Part shown: positions 26,904 through 32,711 of the stretch, in pieces | Layout: each line of letters starts with the position of its first letter | Position numbering within the stretch: position 1 is the stretch's first letter | Assembly: GCA_905236205.1 (NCBI GenBank) | Contig: CAJOPF010000107.1 | Coordinates: 1 to 32,888, forward strand | From: Candidatus Gastranaerophilales bacterium | Lineage (GTDB): Bacteria; Cyanobacteriota; Vampirovibrionia; Gastranaerophilales; Gastranaerophilaceae | Length of the DNA: 32,888 bases | Reading direction: 5' to 3' | Position numbers and translations under genes: made by a program | Notes under the pieces: model-generated | What the model was told of the DNA's origin: nothing | What the model saw: only the letters and a program-made list of their open reading frames with translations | The model's database searches: none

Positions 26904-27173
26904 ATGTCTGAAGAAAAAGTTGTTAAATTAGGTAAAAGAACGCATAAAGAACATACTCATGAGGAAAATGAAAACATAATTCATAATGAGGCTGTTTTTT
27001 GCAGTTTTTGCGGTCGTCCGAATACAGAGGTCTTAAAAATGGTTAAGGGGCCCGGAGTTAATATTTGCTCCGAATGTACAATGATAGCCGTACAATATTT
27101 AATAATGAACGACAGAATGCCGTCAGAAGAAGCTCAAAAAGTTCTTGATGCAATCTGGAGGATTAGTAAATAA
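26904..27173 (+). CDS. Stand-alone ClpX-type C4 zinc-binding domain protein
   Basis: 89 aa; AVFCSFCGRPNTEVLKMVKGPGVNICSECTMIAVQYLI matches the ClpX N-terminal zinc-finger pattern (CSFCG..VKLIAGP..ICDEC); no Walker motifs, stop in frame. Confidence 0.88.
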   Translation: MSEEKVVKLGKRTHKEHTHEENENIIHNEAVFCSFCGRPNTEVLKMVKGPGVNICSECTMIAVQYLIMNDRMPSEEAQKVLDAIWRISK

Positions 27174-28810
27174 TGGAACAGCTTAATAAAATTCAGCTTA
27201 AAGCAGAAATCTTAACGGTAATATCTAAACTACAAACATTATCCGACACTTCAAAAGTTGAAGGTATTATTGAAGTTTTGGCTTGTCAGGAAGACAAAAA
27301 ACTGATTTTGGATTTACTTATGCGTGAATTTGTAAAAACACGCGAAGACAAAGCTTTTATTCTTAGTTTTTTAATGCTTAGATTAACCGATAAAGAACAA
27401 TTGGAAAATGCTCTTTGGACATCTTTAAAAAGCCCTACCGTAAGCGATTATAATAAAGCATTGATACTTAATCTTTTAAAAGATATGGGTAACAGGGTTG
27501 ATTATAATGATATCGACGAATATTTTGAATCTCCTGAAGAAATCATTGACGCGGAAACAAAAGAGTTGCTTCATACGGCAATAATGAATCCCGAAGCTCA
27601 AATAGATTTTTTGGATTTTTTGGAAGCGCTTTCTTATGAAGATAAATTGACTTTAGTTGAATCATTGGGTGATGATTATTCGGAAGATGCTCTTGCAAAT
27701 ATTTTAATTCCGTTGTTTGTACACGATCCTACTTCAAGAATTGCGCTTGTAGCTTTGAATATTTTAGGCAAAACAAAATCTCAACTTGCACTTCACGCTT
27801 TAAACGAGGTTCTTGAATATGCTGATGAGGATATTGTACCTGCTATTAAAAGAAATATTTCAACATTGAGGTTATCAGGCGTAAGAGAAGATAATGCCAT
27901 AGATTTTTATAAAGATGTATTATCAGAATCAAAGGTCTATGAATGTTATACAAGTTATCCTGACGGTCATGGAAATCAGGCTCTTATTTTTTCAAGAGAA
28001 AGAGAAGATGAATCTATCCAGTTTTTGGCGGTTGTAGTCAATGATAAATGGGGCATTGTTGATTGTTTCGGATTTAATCAAATCACAAAAGATGAATTTG
28101 AAAGAATTGTTGCAAGATTTTACGGTGAGGAAGACAGCGTTTATATAAATCAAACAGTTCTGAAATCTTTGTTAAACAGTGCAGAAAACATTGTTCACAG
28201 AAACGGCGAAGTTGTTTCTTATGAGTATATCTGCTGGAGAACTATTACTTCTGATATTCCTGTTGAACCTGTTCCTATGGACTTTATTATGGAAGATAAA
28301 TTCACTAAAGATGCTTTAAGTCAGGCTGATTTTGATAAAATTTGCTTGTCGGATGTCGCTCAGAAATGGTTCTTAGACACTGATTTTTCTGACGAATTCG
28401 CTGAATTTATTTCTAATTTGAATAAAGAATTCAGAGCAGGTAATTATTCTGTGGATTTGGACGGAATGATAGAAGATAATATTGATGATATTATTTCTAA
28501 AAAAGATTCTAAAAAATGGCAAAAAAGAATACTTACTTCCGCATATTTAAAGTATTTGGCAAATGAAAAAGCAGAGGCTCAAAGGCTATATTCTTTATAT
28601 TTTGATGAAAAATCAATGCATAATATGTTCTTAAATATTGTGAGAAAAAGTATATATGAGTATTATGTAGGATTAAAATTCAGAATTAAAGAAGAATCAG
28701 AAACGACAAGTATTTTTGCAAGAAACAGAGCTGAAGTCAGAAGAATATTCACTTTGGAAGAACTTGAAAAAATAATTACCGTAATAGAAGATAAATGGGT
28801 ATCTGACTAA
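27173..28810 (+). CDS. Large alpha-solenoid (HEAT-like) protein of unknown function
   Basis: 545 aa; helical repeats in N-terminal half; start overlaps preceding stop (TAATG). Confidence 0.65.
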   Translation: MEQLNKIQLKAEILTVISKLQTLSDTSKVEGIIEVLACQEDKKLILDLLMREFVKTREDKAFILSFLMLRLTDKEQLENALWTSLKSPTVSDYNKALILNLLKDMGNRVDYNDIDEYFESPEEIIDAETKELLHTAIMNPEAQIDFLDFLEALSYEDKLTLVESLGDDYSEDALANILIPLFVHDPTSRIALVALNILGKTKSQLALHALNEVLEYADEDIVPAIKRNISTLRLSGVREDNAIDFYKDVLSESKVYECYTSYPDGHGNQALIFSREREDESIQFLAVVVNDKWGIVDCFGFNQITKDEFERIVARFYGEEDSVYINQTVLKSLLNSAENIVHRNGEVVSYEYICWRTITSDIPVEPVPMDFIMEDKFTKDALSQADFDKICLSDVAQKWFLDTDFSDEFAEFISNLNKEFRAGNYSVDLDGMIEDNIDDIISKKDSKKWQKRILTSAYLKYLANEKAEAQRLYSLYFDEKSMHNMFLNIVRKSIYEYYVGLKFRIKEESETTSIFARNRAEVRRIFTLEELEKIITVIEDKWVSD

Positions 28811-29215
28811 ATGGATAAAATAATGTCACTCGATATCGGTACAAAAAGGGTGGGAATAGCCTTAAGTGATTATCTGCATATAATTGCAAACGGCCATTCT
28901 TACATAAGCAGACAGCCTGAAGATATTGCAGTAACAAACATAAAAAAAATAGCCAAAGAAAACAATGTAAAAAAAATAGTTATAGGTGTACCATACAATA
29001 TGGACGGTACAAAAGGTGAGCAGGCAAATGATTGCATAAATTTTTCAAAAAACTTTTCAGAATTTGAAATTATACAAGAAGACGAAAGACTAACTTCAGA
29101 GTATGCGGAAGAAAACTTAAAATCTAAAGGTATTGATTTCAGAAAAGAAAAAGGTTTAGTTGATGTAGAAAGTGCATGTATCATATTAGAGCAATATTTA
29201 TCAAAATTAAAATAA
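28811..29215 (+). CDS. ruvX: Putative pre-16S rRNA nuclease / Holliday junction resolvase-like YqgF
   Basis: 134 aa; MSLDIGTKRVGIALSD, KIVIGVPYNMDGTKGEQA, EDERLTSEYAE. Confidence 0.93.
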   Translation: MDKIMSLDIGTKRVGIALSDYLHIIANGHSYISRQPEDIAVTNIKKIAKENNVKKIVIGVPYNMDGTKGEQANDCINFSKNFSEFEIIQEDERLTSEYAEENLKSKGIDFRKEKGLVDVESACIILEQYLSKLK

Positions 29216-29230: not shown

Positions 29231-29491
29231 ATGGCAGAAGAAAAAAGAATAATTGAAACAATAGATGAAAACGGAAATGAAGTAAAATTTGAATTGTTTG
29301 ATATAATTGTTTTCGAAGAACAGGAATATGCACTGTTAACTAATCCTGAAGATGATGATGACGAAAATATTGTTGTTATGAAACTGTTAAAAGAAGGCAG
29401 CGGTTACTCTTTAGAAACAATTGAAGATGATGACGAATTTGAAAGAGTTTCTGAATATATTGAATCATTGGAAGAAGAAGCAGAGGATTAG
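29231..29491 (+). CDS. DUF1292-family acidic protein
   Basis: 86 aa; GNEVKFELFDIIVFEEQEYALLTNPEDDDDENIVVMKLL..DDDEFERVSEYIE. Confidence 0.88.
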   Translation: MAEEKRIIETIDENGNEVKFELFDIIVFEEQEYALLTNPEDDDDENIVVMKLLKEGSGYSLETIEDDDEFERVSEYIESLEEEAED

Positions 29492-29493
29492 TT

Positions 29494-30855
29494 TTGTTAG
29501 AAAAATTTACTGAAAAAGCTATAAATGTCGTAACTGAGGCGCAAAATCAAGCTAAATTGATGCAAAATGTCTCTGTTCAGCCTGAGCATTTTTTACTTGC
29601 TCTTGTAAAACAGGCAAGAGGTATTTCATTAAACGTTTTTAGAACTTATAAAGTCGATTTTCAAACGCTGCAAAAGGTTGTTGAGGAAAAGTTGCGATTT
29701 GAAAAGTCTTCAAAAATATTTACTGCGCCACCTTTTAGCAAAGCAAGTAAGGAATTGCTGAAAAGAGCGTCTGATATAGCGGAAAAAAGCTCTAATCAAA
29801 ACATACTGTATGAACATATTTTTCTTGCTGTTCTTCATGATAAAAACTCTTATATCTCAAGAATTTTAGAAAAATTCAATTTTGATGTGTATAAAACAAA
29901 AGATTTAATTTCAAGATTAGTACAGAGAAAAGTTAAAAGAGTTTTGCACCCTGAAAGTTATGATTCTGCAAAATTACCGTCAGAATTATTAGATACAAAA
30001 AATTTGCTATCAGGTAGCAAAGAAGTTTTTGACAGAGCTCTTTCAAAGCTATCCGCTTCTAATTATGAAATTTTGGGTACAGAACAAATTATTTCGTCAA
30101 TTTTGGAAGATAAAGACTCTGAATTGACAAAAATCTTGTCAGAAAACGGTATTAACTCTGAGAGTTTCGATAAAAAATTAAAAGAATTAACTACACGTCA
30201 GGACGAATTTGAAGATAAGCAGATAATTTTTACTCCGAATGCGTTTCTTGCAATGAACAATGCTATTGAATGTGCAAAAGAGCTGGGTTCTTCAGTTGTT
30301 ACTCCTACTCATTTGATCTTAGGTATTCTCAAGTCTAAAAAAGGTATAGCTTATAATATATTTAAGCAGCTTGGAGTTTCTGAAATTTTGTTGGAAAAAG
30401 AAATTGTAAGACCAATAGAAAATCAAATGCCTGAAGCTATGACAATAATGAAATTGGCAAAAGAAGAAGCTCGTCGTATAGGACGTAATACTGTCGGAAC
30501 GGAAATGTTTTTACTTGGTATAATTTCTGAAGGTAACGGAATAGGCTATCAGGTATTGAACGAATTGGAAGTTACAATTAAAGATGCAAGAGCGGCTGTT
30601 GAAGATATTATCGGTTATGGTGATGATTATTTTGATACGGAAATTACTTTTACCGACAGAGCTAAAAAAGTCTTGGAAGAGGCTTGGAAACTTGCAAAAA
30701 CAAGAAATGAACCAAAAATAGAATCTTCTCATTTGTTATATGCTATAACAAATTTTCCTGATTGCGTTGCAATGAAAGTTCTTGAACAGCTGGGCGCAGA
30801 TGTTGTTGAAATTAAACAAGGCATTATTTTAGAAAAGCAAAGAAGTGAAAAATAA
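29494..30855 (+). CDS. Protein of three tandem ClpC-type N-domain (Clp_N) modules, no AAA+ domain
   Basis: 453 aa, TTG start; LEKFTEKAINVVTEAQNQAKLMQNVSVQPEHFLLALV; third module (aa ~310-447) MKLAKEEARRIGRNTVGTEMFLLGIISEGNGIGYQVLNELEVTIKDARAAVEDIIGYG is very ClpC-like; no Walker A/B anywhere. Confidence 0.9.
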   Translation: MLEKFTEKAINVVTEAQNQAKLMQNVSVQPEHFLLALVKQARGISLNVFRTYKVDFQTLQKVVEEKLRFEKSSKIFTAPPFSKASKELLKRASDIAEKSSNQNILYEHIFLAVLHDKNSYISRILEKFNFDVYKTKDLISRLVQRKVKRVLHPESYDSAKLPSELLDTKNLLSGSKEVFDRALSKLSASNYEILGTEQIISSILEDKDSELTKILSENGINSESFDKKLKELTTRQDEFEDKQIIFTPNAFLAMNNAIECAKELGSSVVTPTHLILGILKSKKGIAYNIFKQLGVSEILLEKEIVRPIENQMPEAMTIMKLAKEEARRIGRNTVGTEMFLLGIISEGNGIGYQVLNELEVTIKDARAAVEDIIGYGDDYFDTEITFTDRAKKVLEEAWKLAKTRNEPKIESSHLLYAITNFPDCVAMKVLEQLGADVVEIKQGIILEKQRSEK

Positions 30856-32170
30856 AATTGAAAAATTTTTAAAAGAGCATAATCTTGCTGCAAAGGATAA
30901 AATTATTGCAGTCGGTTTTTCGGGCGGATATGACTCTATGGCTTTGCTAAACGTCGTTTATGAGCTGTCAAAAATATATAATTTTACTGTTATAGCAGCA
31001 CATTTGAACCATAATTGGCGTGGATGCGAATCTCTTCAGGAGATGAAAAATTGTGAAAAGTTTTGTCTTGACAATGATATTTGCTTTTACTGTGAAACCC
31101 TGGATGAGAATGAGAAACATACAGAAACTGTTGCAAGAGAATTGAGATATAAATTTTTTGAAAGAGTTATTGAAAAGTATCATGCGGATGCTCTTTTAAC
31201 CGCTCATACAAAAAGCGATATTGTGGAAACTGTTATTTACCGATTGATTAAGGGTACAGGTATAAAGGGACTTCAGGGTATTTCTCCAAATCTTGGGAAA
31301 ATATACAGACCAATGCTGGATATATCAAGAGATGAAGTTTTGAATTATTGCCAAAATAATTCGTTAAATCCAAATAATGACAGTTCTAATACGGATAATA
31401 AGTATGCAAGAAATTATATCAGAAATCAAATAGTTCCTTTGTGTAAAGAAATCAATCCAAAGTTGGAAAATGCAATAAGTTCTCTTTCTGAATTGGCGTA
31501 TGAGGAAGAACAAATTGTAAAAGAGTACATTAACAGTTTAGATATGTATGACGGTAATAAAATTAAAACCAAAGTGTTTAAAACTCTTTCAAAAGTTCTT
31601 CAAAAACGTGTGGTTTATGAAATTTTTGTGAAATATGATTTTGAATATACGCAGGAACGTGTTGAAAATGTTTTAAATTTTATTTTGGAAAATCTAAATT
31701 CAAAATCGGGCAAGAAAGTGTCAGTATGTGCTGATAATTGGATATACGTAAATTCAAACGAAATTTATGTTATAGGTAAAATACAGAAAAATAGTCAGGA
31801 GATTTTTATAAAAAATGAAGGTAAATTTGTTTTTGGAGATTATGAATTTACCATAGAAAAATGTATTTCAAAACCTGATAGATATCCGTTAGATTCTGAA
31901 TATAGGGCATTTGTTGAATTGGATAATATTGATTTTATATTGCGTACAAGAAGATTTGGAGATAAATTTCAGCCTTTAGGTTCGTCTTCTGTTACAAAAT
32001 TAAAGAATTATTTTATCAATAAAAATATTCCTCAACATGAAAAAGACAATATTGTATTACTTTGTAAAGAGGATGAAGTCCTTTGGATAAGCGGATATTC
32101 TCTTAGTGATAAAATAAAAGTTGTCAATAATTGTACACATGTGCTAACATTAAATAAGATAGGTGGTTAA
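30845..32170 (+). CDS. tilS: tRNA(Ile)-lysidine synthase
   Basis: 441 aa, GTG start; IAVGFSGGYDSMALLNVVYEL; AAHLNHNWRG; HTKSDIVETVIYRLIKGTGIKGLQGI. Confidence 0.94.
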   Translation: MKNKIEKFLKEHNLAAKDKIIAVGFSGGYDSMALLNVVYELSKIYNFTVIAAHLNHNWRGCESLQEMKNCEKFCLDNDICFYCETLDENEKHTETVARELRYKFFERVIEKYHADALLTAHTKSDIVETVIYRLIKGTGIKGLQGISPNLGKIYRPMLDISRDEVLNYCQNNSLNPNNDSSNTDNKYARNYIRNQIVPLCKEINPKLENAISSLSELAYEEEQIVKEYINSLDMYDGNKIKTKVFKTLSKVLQKRVVYEIFVKYDFEYTQERVENVLNFILENLNSKSGKKVSVCADNWIYVNSNEIYVIGKIQKNSQEIFIKNEGKFVFGDYEFTIEKCISKPDRYPLDSEYRAFVELDNIDFILRTRRFGDKFQPLGSSSVTKLKNYFINKNIPQHEKDNIVLLCKEDEVLWISGYSLSDKIKVVNNCTHVLTLNKIGG

Positions 32171-32171
32171 T

Positions 32172-32711
32172 ATGCTTGAAATGATTACGGAAAAGGATTT
32201 AAAAGTCCTTATAAAAGAGGATGAACTCCAAAATAAAATCAAAGAACTTGGGGACAGGTTAAATGATTTTTATAAAAATGAAGAGTTGTATGTAGTATCG
32301 GTATTAAAAGGTTCAGTAATGTTTACTGTTGACCTTGTAAAACATTTAAAAATGCCTTTGAATATGAATTTTATAAGATTATCAAGTTACGGTTCAAGTT
32401 TTACTTCGTCAGGAAAAGTTAATGCTGTTGATATTTCTTTGCCTGATTTGAACGGTAAAAATGTTATTATCGTTGAGGATATAATTGATACAGGTTTGAC
32501 CGCAAAATTTTTATTGGACTTTATTCATTTAAACTTTAAAACAAAGTCTTTAAAATTCTGTTCATTATTGGATAAAAAAGAAACAAGAAAAGTTGACGTT
32601 CAGCCAGATTATTATTGTTTTGAAATCGGTAATCAGTTTGTTGTTGGTTATGGTTTGGATTACGACGGATTTTACAGAAATTTACCATATATAGGATACC
32701 TTGAAACATAG
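32172..32711 (+). CDS. hpt: Hypoxanthine phosphoribosyltransferase
   Basis: Start ATG 32172; VSVLKGSVMFTVDLVKHL; VIIVEDIIDTGLTAKFLLD. Confidence 0.94.
   Translation: MLEMITEKDLKVLIKEDELQNKIKELGDRLNDFYKNEELYVVSVLKGSVMFTVDLVKHLKMPLNMNFIRLSSYGSSFTSSGKVNAVDISLPDLNGKNVIIVEDIIDTGLTAKFLLDFIHLNFKTKSLKFCSLLDKKETRKVDVQPDYYCFEIGNQFVVGYGLDYDGFYRNLPYIGYLET

Follow-up and report, generated by a model that had tools for sequence, protein, structure and literature searches.

A motor-less array of three Clp_N modules as a candidate regulator of protein degradation in Gastranaerophilales

The ClpN3 locus

The window, by which we mean the whole stretch of DNA that was analysed (32,888 nucleotides from a Candidatus Gastranaerophilales bacterium), contains a compact run of seven genes on the forward strand, in which neighbouring genes overlap by up to 11 bases or are separated by gaps of at most 15 bases. 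The fifth gene codes for a motor-less protein with three Clp_N modules, for which we use the working name ClpN3. The genes of the run and the parts of ClpN3 are:

26904..27173, forward strand: stand-alone ClpX C4 zinc-finger protein, 89 aa, first gene of the putative operon (PF06689, E=1.8e-13)
27173..28810, forward strand: 545-aa protein with a weak HEAT-repeat match (Pfam)
28811..29215, forward strand: ruvX (PF03652, E=5.3e-34)
29231..29491, forward strand: DUF1292 protein (PF06949, E=5.7e-13)
29494..30855, forward strand: ClpN3, motor-less three-Clp_N protein, 453 aa (Pfam; orthologues full length in 53/58 genomes of the order)
29494..29934, forward strand: module 1, aa 1-147, the fastest evolving (35% mean pairwise identity)
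29935..29994, forward strand: linker, aa 148-167, with an invariant HPE, predicted to be disordered (alignment, AlphaFold)
29995..30414, forward strand: module 2, about aa 168-307 (42% mean pairwise identity)
30415..30834, forward strand: module 3, about aa 308-447, the most conserved (53% mean pairwise identity) and nearest to ClpC
30845..32170, forward strand: tilS, overlapping ClpN3 by 11 bases (PF01171, E=4e-51)
32163..32711, forward strand: hpt, phosphoribosyltransferase (PF00156, E=1.5e-23)

The open reading frame of ClpN3 (29494-30855, forward strand) has 453 codons, giving the 453-aa protein; it starts with TTG and ends with a TAA stop at 30853-30855. The purine-rich AGAGG at 29482-29486 lies seven bases upstream of the TTG start. 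There is a promoter-like TTGGCA-18-TACAAT upstream of the zinc-finger gene, although matches of this kind are no more frequent in this DNA than expected by chance.

Many genomes of the family share the seven-gene order; in others, ClpN3 is surrounded by unrelated genes, and no single gene stays its neighbour throughout the order. The zinc-finger gene, too, is found across the order (53/58 genomes plus one fragment); it is followed by the HEAT-like gene (500-545 aa) in 30/30 loci examined and, by comparison of coordinates, has ClpN3 within about 4 kb in 24 genomes. That a single operon carries two Clp targeting domains, both motor-less, points to the Clp system. However, this tie is tempered by ruvX, tilS and hpt, which are ordinary housekeeping genes, and by the loss of the link in other families.

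As a separate observation, the ClpN3 operon of one genome (G030, L073 9131-11164, forward strand) runs on into clpP, identified by direct reading, and clpX.

Three Clp_N modules without a motor

A Pfam hmmscan of ClpN3 finds six stretches of Clp_N (PF02861; E=1.1e-50, 170 bits versus a cut-off of 20.7) and no match to any AAA family. When the genome is searched in all six frames, every one of the six half-repeats scores above the Pfam Clp_N cut-off by itself, including the four in modules 1 and 2, so that both of these modules are recognised. An earlier note on this DNA, made from the sequence alone, had described three Clp_N modules without an ATPase, and this description is borne out by the six half-repeats, the lack of AAA family matches and the true stop codon. 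A read-through or frameshift that would join ClpN3 to an AAA+ domain, which the same note had named as a possible refutation, is ruled out by the TAA stop, by the 11-base overlap with tilS and by the orthologues, which share the position of the stop; no ATPase domain is found among the orthologues examined. The other refuting outcome in that note, HMMs that miss Clp_N in modules 1 and 2, is excluded by the half-repeat scores. By its repeats above the curated cut-off ClpN3 is a member of the Clp_N family, but it is not an Hsp100 unfoldase of the ClpC/ClpA/ClpB type, which has two AAA+ modules. ClpN3 is a genuine, order-specific protein with a conserved architecture that fits named families at the domain level only.

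AlphaFold models built with 28 or 71 orthologues contain three 8-helix modules (about aa 1-144, 168-311 and 314-452) with a mean pLDDT of 84-86, in agreement within a few residues with the module boundaries first proposed. Modules 2 and 3 are joined almost directly, and a disordered stretch separates modules 1 and 2. The pTM is just 0.56-0.58, and the relative placement of the modules in the model is therefore unreliable. The top Foldseek matches of the model are ClpC N-domains (5gui, TM 0.89 on the target, 44% identity, module 3), with ClpT2 (4y0c) and Hsp104 N-domains further down the list. Together with the Pfam matches and the models, these matches show a Clp_N fold in the modules. In sequence searches, the best match of module 3 is the chloroplast ClpC1 N-domain (E=3.1e-28), and modules 1 and 2 have weaker matches to the Hsp104 and ClpC2 N-domains. 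The idea that the third module is the closest to ClpC therefore holds by sequence search, by the identity to the chloroplast ClpC1 N-domain and by the tree described below.

The resting-state and ligand residues of ClpC reported in PMC12583610 and PMC10030653 were mapped onto ClpN3. Module 1 retains the ClpC ligand-site residues as F2 (F/L/I), F5, T6, K8, E31, F81, K86 and E107, where F2/F5/T6/K8/E31 and F81/K86/E107 are the equivalents of groove, pArg and anchor residues. In module 2 the F-T motif is gone from the first half, where E197 is kept; the second half retains FTPNA, and E263, G265 and H273 are invariant. In module 3 the first half has lost F-T-K and kept E337, and the second half retains F386, T387, R389, K391, E395 and K428. 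A phosphoarginine-reading ClpC N-domain has paired T/E pArg pockets and goes with a McsB kinase in the genome; of the pocket residues, module 1 keeps T6/E31 and S82/E107, and the other modules keep a part.

The most surprising feature of ClpN3 is the HPE tripeptide at aa 152-154 (bases 29947-29955), which sits in the least conserved part of the protein and is nevertheless invariant in 113/113 unique full-length sequences. The pLDDT is below 50 on both sides of it, and the linker is modelled with low confidence even with 71 sequences. A J-domain-like reading of the tripeptide (HPD in DnaJ) finds no support, since Pfam gives no match to DnaJ at E<=1. By direct reading, the disordered linker does not contain the ClpP-docking (I/L)G(F/L) tripeptide.

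Distribution, selection and origin

In a phylum-wide sample, ClpN3 is matched in 129/131 Gastranaerophilales genomes and in 0/161 genomes from the rest of the phylum. Within a set of 58 genomes of the order, the full-length protein is encoded in 53, a fragment at a contig edge in one and module 1 alone in another, and three lack ClpN3 altogether. This occurrence rules out a one-genome artefact, and the conservation in related genomes that the earlier note had proposed to check is order-wide. Genomes from other orders of the class offer nothing better than a match between module 3 and the N-domain of a full-length ClpC. Identity to the ClpN3 of the window is down to 37-40% in the families furthest away, with the length still at about 450-467 aa. 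Against two congeners dN/dS is 0.057 and 0.067; as dS is saturated (1.6), these values indicate purifying selection and no more. The genome with module 1 only (G008) retains it as a 143-aa protein (L059 2113-2544, reverse strand), and modules 2 and 3 are not found downstream.

A tree of the single ClpN3 modules together with ClpC and ClpB N-domains shows that modules 1, 2 and 3 each form one clade (SH-aLRT support 85, 100 and 99), which implies that the three-module array was assembled once, before the order radiated. Module 3 groups with ClpC (support 92). The placement of module 1 near ClpB/ClpA (87) is not trusted because of long branches. The internal duplication proposed earlier is borne out only in part: each module has one origin, and the tree gives no dependable parent for modules 1 and 2. 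The ClpC N-domain of the order is nearly invariant, while the ClpN3 modules diverge strongly.

Comparison with known Clp_N proteins

Besides plastid ClpT, bacterial Clp_N proteins without a motor have been described before. ClpT had been named as the best-known relative and is indeed motor-less kin; the better precedent, however, is mycobacterial ClpC2 (PDB 8AD9), which is bacterial and has a worked-out sponge/competitor function (PMC10030653). Like ClpN3, ClpC2 is a motor-less protein with a ClpC-type Clp_N that exists alongside a full-length ClpC, and it is matched from ClpN3 by sequence at E=7e-7. However, ClpC2 consists of an N-terminal four-helix dimerisation domain and one Clp_N, while ClpN3 has three modules from its N-terminus and no extra domain. 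ClpC2 also represses its own promoter, whereas ClpN3 has the HPE linker and the window has no ClpC2-type operator: CGTCAAC-n5-GTTGACG is absent upstream of ClpN3, and its one match in the window, with 3 mismatches, is at chance level and far away. At the cyclomarin site (F2, F80 and E89), module 1 keeps both Phe residues and mostly has K/R for E89, and module 3 keeps the equivalents of F80 and E89 but not the first-half Phe.

Plastid ClpT1 and ClpT2 (PDB 4Y0B, 4Y0C) are motor-less Clp_N proteins as well, they come from a cyanobacterium-derived Clp system, and 4y0c is a structural match. They differ from ClpN3 in having one module, which sits on the ClpP ring, and in sequence they are much more distant than ClpC. 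The ClpC N-domains of Arabidopsis ClpC1 (5GUI), M. tuberculosis ClpC1 (3WDC) and B. subtilis ClpC (2Y1R) have the fold in common with ClpN3, but in ClpC a single module is attached to AAA+ rings.

Clp partners and adaptors

ClpS docks on the Clp_N surface of ClpC/ClpA. The same surface of ClpC is the binding place of MecA and McsB (PMC12583610). ClpS is found in 0/58 genomes of the order by a search that matched its control (G058, another order), and in the class sample it occurs in two other families only. MecA is found in 0/59 genomes of the order, again with a matched control. For McsB the search matched 0/59 genomes, but it matched no control genome either. Several families of the class without ClpN3 also lack ClpS, which speaks against ClpN3 as a mere stand-in for ClpS; a plain replacement of a lost ClpS is unsupported.

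ClpP is present in the order, usually with two per genome, and a full-length ClpC with the M-domain/UVR motif is present in relatives. The window's own assembly, which is 88.6% complete, has ClpB and ClpX, but ClpC was not recovered. As ClpC-like matches are found in congeners (G001, G003, G004 and G006), the absence is probably an assembly gap.

Proposed mechanism and alternatives

We suggest, tentatively, that ClpN3 may act in trans on ClpC-ClpP as a holdase or competitor that binds what the ClpC N-domain takes as clients or ligands. It would then be a free-standing ClpC N-terminal domain in the form of a three-module array, i.e., a multivalent counterpart of mycobacterial ClpC2. The ligands could be exposed client segments, lineage-specific adaptors yet to be found or ClpC-directed peptides, and by holding or competing for them ClpN3 would tune the amount that reaches the ClpC-ClpP protease. 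Judged from its intact groove residues, module 1 is the likeliest ligand-binding unit, and modules 2 and 3 are probably a structural or docking unit.

The Clp_N fold without an ATPase, the order-wide conservation, the dN/dS of 0.06-0.07, the residues of module 1, the ClpC and ClpPs of relatives and the operon link to the ClpX zinc finger in 24 genomes all argue for this proposal. Against it stand the absence of ClpS and MecA, the ClpC N-domain ligands that could be searched, the lack of a constant neighbour, and an own assembly without a recovered ClpC, though congeners have one. The invariant HPE linker also counts against it, as a simple decoy would not need it. There are, however, precedents for action in trans: mycobacterial ClpC2 is a competitor of ClpC1 for cyclomarin and perhaps also a holdase (PMC10030653), and free ClpT1 binds ClpC2 and ClpD and alters the ATPase rate of ClpD (PMC4243950). 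Moreover, ClpC activity is controlled through contacts that the N-domain of ClpC makes and that ligands break (PMC12583610). On these grounds we prefer a competitor or holdase over an activator that docks on ClpC, and both over a factor that binds the ClpP core.

An activator or delivery adaptor specific to the lineage is possible but less likely. Such a protein would dock on ClpC itself, via module 3 and/or HPE, on the M-domain, the AAA1 face or the rim of N-domains; it would displace the anchors of ClpC's own N-domain and open the resting state, with the client presented by module 1. In the second half of module 3, R389 and K391 (97% each) and K428 (K/R in 81%) are the equivalents of ClpC R83, K85 and R122, and in resting ClpC, K85 and R122 tether the N-domain to AAA1 and to the M-domain (PMC12583610). 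The order has a ClpC with M-domain/UVR and neither ClpS nor MecA, which may leave a need for a different activator; free ClpT1 stimulates the ATPase of ClpD (PMC4243950), and the invariant HPE could serve as a docking motif. However, the F-T-K residues are gone from the first half of module 3, and the families of the class that lack both ClpS and ClpN3 show that loss of ClpS alone demands no replacement.

It can also be speculated, although we consider it unlikely, that Gastranaerophilales use free-standing Clp targeting domains as order-specific adaptors in trans, namely ClpN3 and the ClpX zinc finger, which frequently share an operon; these would replace the missing ClpS and MecA types, with the HPE linker as a docking signal for the motor.

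It is rather improbable that ClpN3 is a ClpT-like factor that binds the ClpP core (with usually two ClpPs per genome) and controls its assembly or the docking of chaperones. ClpT, itself a motor-less Clp_N protein, sits on the ClpP ring (PMC7966870), ClpT1 and ClpT2 are detectable relatives of ClpN3 (4y0b E=1.1e-5, 4y0c E=7.8e-4), and the operon that extends into clpP-clpX in G030 would fit. However, ClpT has a single module, module 3 is far nearer to ClpC than to ClpT, the linker lacks (I/L)G(F/L) and the link to clpP is seen in one genome only.

We see still less reason to regard ClpN3 as a sponge for ClpC-directed peptide antibiotics or phage proteins, as in ClpC2. Module 1 keeps the equivalents of F2 and F80, which hold cyclomarin in ClpC1/ClpC2 (PMC10030653), but its E89 equivalent is mostly K/R; ClpN3 is near-universal in the order and not patchy, its operon in the window is of the housekeeping kind, and both the ClpC2-type operator and the dimerisation domain are missing. 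Finally, the decoy and scaffold ideas of the earlier note are plausible, but its version of a reservoir for ClpS, MecA or McsB is hardly credible: the Clp_N surface is the site of these adaptors on ClpC/ClpA (PMC12583610 for MecA and McsB), yet with working controls the reservoir is near refuted for ClpS and MecA, and for McsB the 0/59 comes from a search with no control genome matched.

The near-universal presence of ClpN3 in Gastranaerophilales suggests that it is a candidate helper or decoy by which this lineage controls its protein degradation. The known bacterial ClpC adaptors that could be searched are missing from the order, and ClpN3 bears on the question of which adaptors drive ClpC in these non-photosynthetic relatives of cyanobacteria. 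As a fast-diverging N-domain array with a conserved architecture, it is a concrete and expressible candidate for a ClpC regulator. ClpN3 would also show how Clp targeting domains can be uncoupled from motors and reused as regulators, like ClpC2 and ClpT in two distant lineages.

Other motor-less Clp_N proteins

A search of the available literature found no paper on ClpC together with Melainabacteria, and among the plasmid matches examined there is no clear motor-less array, the best match being an annotated ClpC-type ATPase. Besides ClpN3, one genome (G007) codes for a 250-aa protein with one Clp_N and a hydrophobic, membrane-like C-terminal region (L064 3337-4089, forward strand).

In a genome from another order of the class (G058), three Clp_N proteins resemble ClpN3 in having no AAA+, and two of them are multi-module. 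The 434-aa protein (L060 11154-12458, reverse strand) has four Clp_N stretches and, as a difference from ClpN3, no HPE linker was seen in it. The 829-aa protein (L060 13802-16291, reverse strand) has at least five Clp_N stretches, and in the 482-aa protein (L061 2400-3848, reverse strand) a Clp_N module is fused to a Ser/Thr protein kinase domain. The arrays of this genome are apparently an independent expansion.
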